This document shows, piece by piece, positions 9,632 to 12,620 of a stretch of DNA of 64,000 bases (its first letter is position 1; every line of letters starts with the position of its first letter). Source of the DNA: Adhaeribacter pallidiroseus (GTDB lineage: Bacteria; Bacteroidota; Bacteroidia; Cytophagales; Hymenobacteraceae). The translations under genes and the position numbers were made by a program. The stretch lies in the NCBI RefSeq assembly GCF_003340495.1, contig NZ_QASA01000001.1, positions 4,836,001 to 4,900,000 on the forward strand. The letters are read 5' to 3'. Below the pieces are notes generated by a model that saw only the letters and a program-made list of their open reading frames with translations, did no database searches and was not told the origin of the DNA.

Positions 9632-9670
9632 AAAGCTCCCCGCCTTGGATAAGGAGGGGTTGGGGGTGGT
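9632..9670 (+). repeat. solo CTCCCC/GGAGGGG intergenic repeat
   Basis: A 39-base element beginning AAAGCTCCCCGCCT and ending GGAGGGGTTGGGGGTGGT. It has two further copies in the window (10961-10998 in the same orientation, 11349-11388 inverted). The CTCC and GGAGGGG parts are partly complementary, so RNA could fold into a short hairpin. Confidence 0.85.
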
Positions 9671-9762
9671 TGATTGTTGAGAGTGGTAAATTTTTAAAAT
9701 TATAACTACTAATCAGGAGACCTTATGCCTCTTCTTTTAAATGCTGTAACAACTTATTTTCT

Positions 9763-9821
9763 AAAAAAGAACAGCCGGAAGATACACGAAATAGCTTTGT
9801 ATCTCCCGGCTGTTCTTTTTT
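9763..9821. terminator. terminator shared by the Gfo/Idh gene and galT
   Basis: Perfect 16-base arms AAAAAAGAACAGCCGG (9763-9778) and its complement (9806-9821) enclose a further AGATACA/TGTATCT pairing. A-run and T-run at the outer edges make it work in both directions; it lies 15 bases from the galT stop. Confidence 0.9.
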
Positions 9822-9836
9822 GATAATTTATACTAA

Positions 9837-10859
9837 CTACACCAAACTGCGTAAGCGATCGGCAGCAGTTTCGGGGGTAATATCGCGTTGCGGATTGCCC
9901 AGCATTTCGTAGCCCACCATAAACTTTTTAACGGTAGCGGAGCGAAGCAGCGGCGGATAAAAATGCATGTGAAAATGCCAAGCCGGATGCTCTTGTCCAT
10001 CGGTTGGCGTTTGGTGAATACCAGCTGAGTACGGAAACGACACGTTAAAAACTTTATCGTAAACTACAGTCAATCTTTTTATACAATCAGCATAAGCATC
10101 TTTTTCTTCCTCGCTCATCTGGCTCAAATTACCAAAGTGGCGCTTGCTCACAATCATGGTCTCAAAAGGCCACACGGCCCAGAAAGGTACCAACGCCACA
10201 AAATGCTCGTTTTCTACTACAATACGTTTTTTTTCTTCGAGTTCAATGGCCAGGTAATCGTTGAGTAAACTGCGGTTATTCGCCTCAAAGTAGTTTTGCT
10301 GCTGCATTAATTCTTTGGCGGGCTCTACCGGAATAGAGCTTTGCGCCCAGATCTGGCCGTGCGGGTGCGGGTTGCTGCAACCCATAATAATGCCTTTATT
10401 TTCAAAAATCTGGACGTAGTTGATAAAGTCGAGCTTACCCAATTCTTCGTATTCGTGCTGCCATAGATCTACTACTTTGCGAATATCAGCTACTTCCATG
10501 TCGGGTAAAGTAAGATCGTGCCGGGGCGAGAAACAGATTACTTTGCAGACTCCCCGTTCACTTTCAGCTTTCAGCAAACCACTTTTCTCAAAGCTGCCGG
10601 TGGGTGTACTCTCCTGTAGAGCGCCAAAGTCGTTATTAAAAACAAAGGTTTGGGAATACGGTGGGTTCTTTTCGCCACCAGCGCGTTCGTTGCCGGGGCA
10701 TAAATAGCAGGTTGGGTCGTAAGCCGGCCGCGTTTCTTTTTCTACTTCTTCCTGCTGGCCTTGCCATGGGCGTTTAGCCCGGTGCGGCGATACCAATACC
10801 CACTCGCCAGTAAGCGCATTGTATCTGCGGTGCGGATGTTCTGCTAAATCAAGTGCCAT
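9837..10859 (-). CDS. galT: galactose-1-phosphate uridylyltransferase
   Basis: A 340-residue enzyme of the Leloir pathway that exchanges UDP between UDP-glucose and galactose-1-phosphate in the cytoplasm. It shows the metal-binding CYLCPGN (Cys51, Cys54) and the active-site [10 protein letters not shown] with His165 and His167, the second being the uridylylated nucleophile. The C-terminal part contains the second His-rich element ([17 protein letters not shown]). Length is normal. It reads toward the 9763-9821 terminator. galK and galM lie upstream in the same direction, but a 600-base repeat-rich insertion with a dead DUF559 gene separates galT from galK, so co-transcription is uncertain. 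Confidence 0.97.
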
Positions 10860-10960: not shown

Positions 10961-10998
10961 AAAGCTCCCCGCCTGATTTAGGAGGGGTTGGGGGTGGT
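10961..10998 (+). repeat. CTCCCC/GGAGGGG repeat, left end of element
   Basis: The same repeat as 9632-9670, differing only around the central TGATTTA. It is in the plus orientation and abuts the 3' end of the DUF559 relic. Confidence 0.85.
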
Positions 10999-11350
10999 AA
11001 ATTTCACTTTAATTTTCTCCAATCCCCTTTCAAATACATCCTTATTCTCAAACCTTGGCGTTTTAATATTAGTTTTTTAAATTTTATGTCTTATTCTTTG
11101 CTAAACTATTATCAGCGAAGGGGTTATTTTCTATCTAACTCAATCCCAAGCTTCTCCCGGGGCAATTGCAATCCAAAATATTCGTCTCCACAATGGGTTG
11201 CTTTCTTAATTTTCTTCTTGGTTGATTATTCTTTAAATGTTTCCATAATGCAGCTTCAGGAGGAGTTAAGTTGCTGCAATTTTGTTGTTGCAGATTTTTA
11301 AATTTTGTTATTTGTGAATACGTTCTGGCATCTTCCAGTGTCGTGGTCAA
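10999..11350 (-). pseudogene. decayed DUF559 (Vsr-like/PD-(D/E)XK) endonuclease gene
   Basis: Three frames on the minus strand together rebuild a DUF559 protein. Frame one (11350 to about 11157) gives NLTPPEAALWKHLKNNQ, then RRKLRKQ and ILDCNCP, matching the family pattern LTPxExxLWxxLR...RKFRRQ...ILDFYCP. Frame two (11133-11156) gives EKLGIELD, the next conserved block. Frame three (10999-11055) gives RFENKDVFERGLEKIKVKF, the family's C-terminal block. At least two frameshifts, several stops and a lost middle segment show it is dead. Intact relatives are predicted nucleases of the Vsr/PD-(D/E)XK fold, about 120-140 residues. Both gene ends touch the inverted CTCCCC repeats. The first frame has only a TTG start; the ancestral start is unclear. 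Confidence 0.8.
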
Positions 11351-11388
11351 CCACCCCTTACCCCTCCTTAGCCAAGGAGAGGAGCTTT
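11349..11388 (-). repeat. CTCCCC/GGAGGGG repeat, right end of element (inverted)
   Basis: Read on the minus strand it starts AAAGCTCCTCTCCT and ends GGGGTGGTTG. It is inverted relative to 10961-10998 and lies at the 5' end of the DUF559 relic. Confidence 0.85.
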
Positions 11389-11397
11389 AATTCCTGT

Positions 11398-11482
11398 TAA
11401 CTTGCAACCTTGCAACTTTCCAACCTTTCAACCTTGCAACTTTTTAAACCTGTAACCTTCTAACCTTCCAACTGTCCAACCA
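11398..11482 (-). repeat. heptamer/octamer array running into the galK 3' end
   Basis: On the minus strand it consists of degenerate units AGGTTGCA, AAGTTGCA, AGGTTGGA and AAGGTTGA. It begins inside the last seven galK codons, crosses the stop (11460-11462) and stops about 10 bases before the inverted CTCCCC repeat. It is the same unit family as the array after the Gfo/Idh gene. Confidence 0.75.
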
Positions 11483-12620
11483 ACCCGGTTCCGTCTACAA
11501 TCTCGGCTACGTAGGTTTTCAGAGTAACAGCAAATTCTTGCTGGTAGGCAGTAGTCATTTTTTGGGTAAAAGCATCTAAGCCGCTTAGTTTTACCAAGTT
11601 AATGGTACAACCGCCAAATCCGCCCCCCATCATGCGGGCACCCAGAACAGAATCATCTTGTCGGGCTAAATCTGCTAGAAAATCGAGTTCCCGGCAGCTT
11701 ACTTCGTAATCGTGTTGCAAGCCTTGGTGCGAGGCAAACATTTTTTGCCCGAAAGCGGCTAAGTCGTTGTTTTCTAAATCCTGGCAGGCGGCTTCTACCC
11801 GGTTGTTTTCCTGCACCACGTAGCGGCAACGCTTGTAAATGACGGGCTCAAATTCGCTTTCATGGGCGGTCAGCATGGCTTCGGTAACATCGCGTAAGCT
11901 TTGTACTTGGGCATTATGCTTTTGCAGCAGCGCAACGCCGGCTTCGCATTCTTTGCGGCGAGTATTATACTCCGAAGAAGCCAGCGAGTGTTTTACCTGC
12001 GTATCGCAAAGCACAATACGGTAATCGGTAATATCAAAAGGATAATACTGGTATTCCAGAGAGCGGCAATCGAGCTTTACCACGTGGTTTTTCTGCCCGA
12101 AGGTATTGGCAAATTGGTCCATGATGCCGCTCATAACGCCCGCAAATTCGTGTTCGGCTTTTTGCCCCATTTTAACTAAATCAAACTTTTCGATATGAAG
12201 CTGAAAAATATAATTCAGGGCAAAGCCTAGCCCACACTCAATGGCCGCCGACGAAGATAAGCCCGCCCCAAGCGGAATATTGCCGCCAAAAACCACATCA
12301 AACCCGGGTAATTGGTACCCGGCTTTTTGCATTTGGGCTATAACGCCTAGTAAGTAATTAGCCCAGGAAATATCTGATTTTTTAACCTCCGATAAACGAA
12401 ACTCCGCCTGTTCGTGCAAATCAAAAGCATAGGCCCGAAAACTGTTCGTGTTGTTAGGCGCTACGGCAAAGTAAACTTCTTTATTAATGGCAGCCGGCAA
12501 CACAAAGCCATTGTTGTAATCGGTATGTTCGCCGATCAGGTTTACCCGGCCCGGTGAGCGCACTAACACGGGTTCTTGCTCGTAGAGTTCTTTAAATTTA
12601 GAAACAATATCGTTAATCAT
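11460..12620 (-). CDS. galK: galactokinase
   Basis: A 386-residue GHMP-family kinase that phosphorylates galactose at C1 with ATP, the first committed Leloir step. The galactokinase signature GRVNLIGEHTDYNNG spans about residues 24-38. The ATP-binding GHMP motif PLGAGLSSSAAIECG is at about 116-130, the catalytic-base segment GIMDQFANTFGQ near 165, and the third GHMP motif MMGGGFGGCTINLV near 335. galM lies 82 bases upstream in the same direction, so they may share a transcript. The last residues (LVGQLEG) are encoded by the repeat array that overlaps the stop codon, so the native C terminus was probably altered slightly; the fold ends before it. Confidence 0.97.
   Translation of the reverse strand: MINDIVSKFKELYEQEPVLVRSPGRVNLIGEHTDYNNGFVLPAAINKEVYFAVAPNNTNSFRAYAFDLHEQAEFRLSEVKKSDISWANYLLGVIAQMQKAGYQLPGFDVVFGGNIPLGAGLSSSAAIECGLGFALNYIFQLHIEKFDLVKMGQKAEHEFAGVMSGIMDQFANTFGQKNHVVKLDCRSLEYQYYPFDITDYRIVLCDTQVKHSLASSEYNTRRKECEAGVALLQKHNAQVQSLRDVTEAMLTAHESEFEPVIYKRCRYVVQENNRVEAACQDLENNDLAAFGQKMFASHQGLQHDYEVSCRELDFLADLARQDDSVLGARMMGGGFGGCTINLVKLSGLDAFTQKMTTAYQQEFAVTLKTYVAEIVDGTGLVGQLEG

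Follow-up and report, generated by a model that had tools for sequence, protein, structure and literature searches.

DUF559 nuclease genes between inverted triplex-type repeats, and a dead element of this kind between galT and galK of Adhaeribacter pallidiroseus

The DUF559 remnant between galT and galK of Adhaeribacter pallidiroseus is probably the corpse of a nuclease-repeat unit, belonging to a REPtron-like system that would be run by a Vsr/EDxHD-type nuclease and would spread by cutting and repair. It lies in the window analyzed here, the whole 64-kb stretch G000:C1:4836001-4900000 of a 6.4-Mb genome (G, C, and L numbers are our handles for genomes, contigs, and loci). DUF559 genes of relatives were found between inverted repeats of a characteristic anatomy, an association that was compared with controls; repeat and nuclease had co-diversified, the gene was under purifying selection, and copies of the repeat without the gene, in-frame copies within host genes, and one flipped element were observed.

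The relic between galT and galK

The initial annotation of this interval (Table 1) had claimed a dead DUF559 gene framed by inverted repeats. At the level of DNA sequence, the alignment of the relic with an intact element of a congener (L092) was decisive for its identity: 73% over 546 nt with E = 1.4e-85, extending approximately 80 nt beyond the second arm. A second intact congeneric element (L085) aligned with E = 2.9e-75. Among the three protein blocks from which the product had been pieced together, tblastn with the intact L092 DUF559 domain recovered the N-terminal block (E = 2.6e-21, 68.6 bits) and RFENKDVFER..KIKVKF (E = 1e-5, 27.7 bits); on the other hand, EKLGIELD (E = 0.004, 20.4 bits) scored below the best of 100 mononucleotide shuffles (21.9 bits), and does not stand by itself. 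The longest open reading frame of the relic matched Pfam DUF559 weakly (E = 0.0083, below the cut-off). The gene is indeed dead; its pieces are distributed over three frames and contain stop codons.

Table 1. Features of the galT-galK region in the window
Feature	Position	Strand	Sequence or remark	Basis
Solo repeat copy, same type as the relic arms, near the galT 3' end	9635..9673	+
galT	9837-10859	-		Name assigned by eye and from the initial annotation
3'-side arm of dead element (hairpin and G-rich foot, foot facing the gene)	10961..11001	+	CTCCCCGCCT-loop-AGGAGGGG TT GGGGGTGG	Approximate limits set by eye
Dead DUF559 (PD-(D/E)XK) gene	10999..11350	-	Three-frame pieces with stop codons	tblastn and DNA alignment
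5'-side arm of dead element	11347..11388	-	Inverted copy of the 3'-side arm	Approximate limits set by eye
galK	11460-12620	-		Name by eye and from the initial annotation; galK homologues found

The framing by inverted repeats was also borne out: the core of the two arms consists of 19 nt paired at 89% (10980-10998 / 11350-11368), and the 3'-side arm is present in the congeners G004 and G003 as well as in the intact elements L085 and L092. In G004 and G003, this relic and its two arms likewise lie between galT and galK; in the galT-galK interval of G006, whose intergenic DNA does not align, no arm was found. The shared relic and its recognizable arms point to an old insertion in the genus, in which the gene died and the arms persisted. 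The 18-mer AGGAGGGGTNGGGGGTGG (up to three mismatches) occurs three times in the 64-kb window against an expectation of 0.08, the third occurrence being the solo copy, at 9652; in G004, a copy of the repeat (C3:1466570) lies at about the same distance from that genome's own relic. An intact one-gene ancestor had been postulated, and L092 and L085 are elements of this kind. Where the arms were clear, most elements measured approximately 440-720 nt from arm to arm, and the reading frame stopped within the 3' arm in all four congeneric intact copies read.

Two further repeats were noted in this region. An 8-nt tandem array (CTTGCAAC-like; 11393-11480) separates the relic from the 3' end of galK, which it overlaps by approximately 20 nt, and by eye the corresponding interval of congeners contains similar text. 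The inverted repeat GAACAGCCGG..CCGGCTGTTC with T-runs (~9764-9822), which adjoins galT, is by eye likely a bidirectional terminator.

DUF559 genes and their flanking repeats

Pfam DUF559 (PF04480) was present in 43 of 59 genomes, including that of A. pallidiroseus, with E down to 1.7e-38. The sample of relatives comprised 91 loci with E of 3.3e-27 or better, two of them from the own genome, and excluded the weaker tail, L003, and L004. When compared with 910 same-spacing windows from the same loci, an inverted repeat common to both 300-nt flanks exceeded the 99th percentile in 78 of the 91 loci and every null window in 71, and the link between DUF559 and repeats that the initial annotation had suggested looking for in relatives, and whose absence would have spoken against it, was thus found. 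Among named genomes across phyla, in a sample of the best 80 of at least 571 relatives (at least 583 matches), 53 passed the same test and 44 scored above every null window; according to the record titles, the passing loci belong to Verrucomicrobia, Elusimicrobia, Chloroflexi, Cyanobacteria, Planctomycetes, Gammaproteobacteria, Patescibacteria, and one archaeal bin. Significant inverted flanks were absent from 13 of the 91 relatives and 27 of the 80 cross-phylum genes. UPF0102, which we take to be a small protein of the same nuclease superfamily, served as a control in the same 59 genomes, and none of 30 loci (from a longer list) had inverted flanks by the same test. Y1_Tnp genes, present in 45 of the 59 genomes, showed inverted repeats in 17 of 29 loci (30 from a longer list, one being too short), an outcome in line with REPtrons.

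The family appears to reside mainly in chromosomes because matches to single queries were few in phages (28 of 50,697 records, three with 80% query coverage) and in plasmids (38 of 72,556 records). One tblastn scan of viral contigs with one domain query gave no relative. Strong inverted flanks were seen in two (L274 and L277) of ten DUF559 loci from the plasmid collection.

Each arm consists of a GC hairpin, a short linker, and a G-rich foot. When the register of the foot was fixed on Gs alone, a mirror of the 3' strand of the hairpin fitted better in 68 of 110 cores and a direct copy in 11, the two being equal in 31. As judged from sequence, the arms share the grammar of the published intrastrand triplex motif, 5'-CCCTCNCCCN3-6GGGNGAGGGN3GGGNGAGGG, formerly BoxC or PIT (PMC4666352). 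In the accessible part of that report, no mobility gene had been found beside the motif, and in vivo footprinting did not demonstrate a stable triplex (PMC4666352). Using a detector for this grammar (300 nt or less on either side), the motif was found at no fewer than 72 of the 91 relatives and 65 of the 80 cross-phylum genes (best 80 of at least 571), these counts being lower bounds because the detector is insensitive and misses the window's own arms; the corresponding values were 0/30 for UPF0102, 0/29 for Y1_Tnp, and 2/182 for random windows. Motifs on both sides were detected in under half of the loci, namely in at least 44 of 91 relatives (38 inverted) and at least 37 of 80 cross-phylum genes (29 inverted). 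The strict consensus of Escherichia coli was found near the gene at 0/91 relatives, 11/80 cross-phylum loci (best 80 of at least 571), and 0/59 control loci, and its density at the cross-phylum loci was 0.25 per kb near the gene against 0.007 per kb far from it (2 hits in 281 kb). The A, B, and C types and most E types of the repeat differ from the published consensus. In the A-type arms of one sub-branch (L051, L066, L074, and L076), the linker that joins stem and foot contains an additional small hairpin.

The DUF559 gene ycjD of E. coli has a triplex-type motif on one side (3') only, and no inverted pair. In the sapF-fabI interval (L271, L290, and L291), the ycjD segment was whole in 3359 of 5426 E. 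coli genomes, and in two genomes lacking the full segment, genes for an MFS transporter and an outer-membrane efflux protein stood beside sapF instead. The place of fabI on the E. coli map is presumably 29 min. The motif 3' of ycjD has the same letters as nos. 9 and 16 printed in the accessible part of PMC4666352, where no. 9 maps to 29 min.

A tree was built from 86 DUF559 domains, five of the 91 being excluded because of stops. The type of repeat tracked the nuclease clades, as did, for the most part, arm orientation. Protein distance and arm similarity between genomes were correlated (Mantel r -0.644 for the 70 loci whose core could be read; no permutation out of 2000 attained this value), and the result held when arms were permuted only within genomes (15 genomes, 48 loci). 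The arm of the nearest relative elsewhere was closer to an element's own arm than to that of an unlike DUF559 gene in the element's genome in 127 comparisons versus 3. Within single elements, the left and right arms had a median similarity of 0.789 (n = 63), compared with 0.618 between arms of different but related elements (n = 484), which indicates concerted change of the pair. In 68 elements with both arms read, the foot pointed inward in 28 and outward in 35, with five mixed.

Intact relatives have invariant R, Q, D, E, and D columns and a conserved D..ExD core. The dN/dS values of 0.02-0.16 in 16 pairs (dS >1 in nine) and 0.05 in a LeuRS-borne pair indicate purifying selection on the nuclease, as estimated from sequences in which several of the 17 pairs have saturated dS. 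An AlphaFold model of a Hymenobacter DUF559 protein (pLDDT of 85.4) resembled 3hrl (TM of 0.79), I-Bth0305I (3r3p; 0.71), and Vsr (0.58-0.67), and a profile search matched 3hrl (E = 1.4e-31) and 3r3p (E = 9.5e-5); the predicted fold is thus of the PD-(D/E)XK / Vsr-EDxHD type, in agreement with the nuclease first suggested for the relic. A Caulobacter DUF559 protein is named, in the accessible part of PMC12907096, as the cause of the SOS response when a methylase is missing, and the family may therefore cut DNA in the cell.

Gene-less copies, movement, and copies within host genes

Most copies of the repeat, counted by A-type and E-type sequence patterns across the 59 genomes, lay away from any DUF559 gene, with up to 65 copies per genome. 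The A-type pattern was found in 27 genomes (65 copies or fewer) and the E-type in 23 (48 or fewer); a reversed control pattern gave no match in any of the 59. Five or more A repeats were present in 20 of 25 genomes with an A-clade nuclease versus 2 of 34 others, and these two (G000 and G003) carry the dead element. Repeats were present and no DUF559 was detected in G007 and G046, and neither searched pattern was found in 10 genomes with DUF559. In the three genomes richest in close neighbors, G016, G028 (both complete), and G013 (46 of 65 copies), all 26 neighbors less than 320 nt apart were ordered (-,+) with the foot outward, 24 being spaced by 116-282 nt and two overlapping. Thirteen further sets of copies gave three (-,+) neighbors, one (+,-) pair that is the gal relic of G004, and three same-strand neighbors in G054; there were none in ten of the 13, including G022 with 48 E copies. 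Gene-less pairs resembling REPINs or BIMEs are thus abundant in three genomes, scarce in two, and missing from the other sets. At L431, a repeat pair appeared by eye to be nested within another repeat, one half of which lay on either side, and palindromic motifs with two feet were noted at G028:C16:29023/29036 and C17:502776/502789; insertion of units at the hairpin of a repeat already in place would be expected to give such arrangements.

The mobility supposed in the initial annotation was supported in part. Besides the gene-less copies and the in-frame copies described below, the related elements L062 and L063 occupy different loci in two congeners, and L042 occupies the locus of L016 and L019 in reverse: its left flank is their right flank reversed (90-91%), and its right flank their left reversed (90-93%), which suggests an inversion between the arms. 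On the other hand, most close pairs are orthologues inherited in place, and since they share the locus, movement must be slow. No convincing target-site duplication was found: 3 of 47 elements had one of 5 nt or more, all offset from the ends or palindromic, a count matched by shuffles in 6 of 500. Empty sites were located for L062 in G013 and for L063 in G008; because they differ from the occupied flanks by at least 140 nt, no insertion junction was readable. L057 and L064, considered as elements at unlike loci, were rejected because 444 nt of one flank is shared.

An ordinary insertion sequence, in which DUF559 is the cut-and-paste transposase of a terminal-inverted-repeat transposon and the gene-less pairs are MITEs, would account for one gene between terminal inverted repeats (78/91), short gene-less pairs in some genomes, and the unlike loci of L062 and L063. 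However, we regard it as unlikely in view of the lack of a clear target duplication, the occurrence of both arm orientations, the strong purifying selection and in-place inheritance, and a predicted nuclease fold of the homing/repair type.

In 15 of the 91 elements, including L036, which enters masked letters, the reading frame extends more than 40 codons beyond an arm; most of the 91 genes are not within host genes. Pfam located DUF559 within leucyl-tRNA synthetase (LeuRS), MetH, UvrD/RecB-like helicase, and DNA methylases, with a further match after a GATase_5 (PurL-type) domain. No Hint (splicing) domain was matched at E of 1e-5 in eight in-frame host proteins. LeuRS gave one match each in 29 of 29 genomes, and 27 of these loci were read: one and the same linker held an element in G054 as well as in genus g25 (G055, G059, and G060), and a degenerate copy lay at another site in G040. 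In G052 (L248), in-frame arm-like coding remnants were noted, with no nuclease, in the LeuRS linker where other genomes hold the DUF559 unit. RecB-like helicase (12 of 27 loci read, together with L020 and L216) was occupied in G016, G010, and G023 and empty in G020, G019, G015, G011, and others. Of the 21 MetH loci read (out of 30), only that of the own genome and that of G025 (with L007) were occupied. The only metH match of the own genome contains a DUF559 element in its linker (L001 1404-1908; G000:C1 ~4682682-4683186), and the methionine synthase appears to be split because the frame shifts right after the insert.

Classical homing, by which DUF559 would copy itself into the same conserved allelic site with the repeats as mere linkers, fits the recurrent occupancy of LeuRS, metH (two genera), and RecB-like helicase (three genomes), as well as the predicted likeness to the fold of I-Bth0305I. 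It is nevertheless quite improbable as the general explanation, because most elements are outside host genes, gene-less repeats are numerous, the flank identity of the metH inserts of the two genera gave no sign of co-conversion, and the repeat co-diversifies with the nuclease. The protein could instead be a domesticated guard that resolves or cuts the hairpin or triplex, flanked by autoregulatory repeats that spread by replication slippage and recombination. The low dN/dS, the in-place inheritance, and the link of triplex repeats to instability in the accessible part of PMC4666352 are compatible with such a guard; since in-frame copies with arms inside essential genes and the matching of arms to their own nuclease type are left unexplained, we give it little credence. 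That the repeats are terminators or RAYT (Y1)-mobilized, with an incidental link to DUF559, is very hard to sustain in spite of their GC hairpins and the many genomes with Y1_Tnp genes, because the controls disfavor it (triplex motif at 0/29 Y1_Tnp and 0/30 UPF0102 versus 72/91 DUF559 loci).

A candidate mechanism and its relation to known systems

In the nuclease-repeat unit that we favor, the DUF559 nuclease, whose gene lies between inverted copies of the hairpin and purine-foot repeat cognate to it, would recognize and cut this repeat, probably as a hairpin or triplex extruded on single-stranded or supercoiled DNA. Repair of the break would place new copies of the repeats elsewhere, accompanied or not by the nuclease gene, gene conversion between the arms would keep them alike, and death of the gene would leave the repeats as solo or paired relics; we infer these steps of cutting, copying, and conversion. 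RAYT transposases are thought to spread REPs similarly.

The link between DUF559 and repeats points to an enzyme that could account for a widespread class of bacterial DNA repeats, for which there has been no explanation to date. The chances seem about even that DUF559 proteins are the missing enzymes of the prokaryotic BoxC/PIT/triplex repeats; the nuclease-repeat units would then form a pan-prokaryotic class of structure-targeting selfish units that add repeats to genomes and insert copies of themselves in frame even within essential proteins (LeuRS and MetH), with their arms as flexible linkers and with no need for splicing. A co-diversifying nuclease makes the origin and spread of the repeats a question for the bench, provides a hypothesis on function for a large family of 'unknown function', and may represent a second, unrelated type of enzyme running a REP-like system; it also adds nuclease domains carried in frame in essential enzymes that lack a splicing domain. 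In the openly licensed literature, as judged by titles and abstract openings and with subscription papers and preprints mostly outside this scope, we found no paper linking triplex, BoxC, PIT, or REP-type repeats to a nuclease, and none mentioning DUF559 together with 'inverted repeat'.

Rickettsial palindromic elements are palindromic repeats inserted in frame into proteins; to our knowledge, they have no nuclease gene and are unrelated in sequence to the DUF559 repeats. NGO0050 (PDB 3hrl), a putative endonuclease-like protein of the same family as DUF559 by profile match, is represented by a structure only, according to its database listing. I-Bth0305I (PDB 3r3p), a homing endonuclease of the EDxHD/Vsr type, has a catalytic domain related to DUF559 by profile and model; unlike it, the DUF559 units had no intein in the eight in-frame hosts and are flanked by triplex-type repeats. 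TM_ECO/BoxC/PIT has the same grammar of a C-rich stem, loop, G-rich stem, short second loop (for instance TTA or CCG), and G-rich third strand, and is described without a mobility gene in the accessible part of PMC4666352, whereas the repeats in this study are tied to a co-diversifying nuclease. REPtrons (RAYT-REP) and TIRtrons, according to the accessible part of PMC3733652, likewise have a nuclease gene between inverted hairpin-plus-foot repeats, and the RAYT-REP system also shares the many gene-less copies, inverted pairs in some genomes, and inheritance mostly in place. On the other hand, the enzyme between the DUF559 repeats is of the PD-(D/E)XK type and not an HUH Y1 transposase, the foot is a purine mirror of the stem and not GTAG, and Y1 genes sampled from the same genomes were free of the DUF559-type triplex motif. 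In spite of these differences in enzyme and foot, by which the DUF559 units fall outside the REPtron/RAYT group, the RAYT-REP system appears to be their nearest analogue in working.
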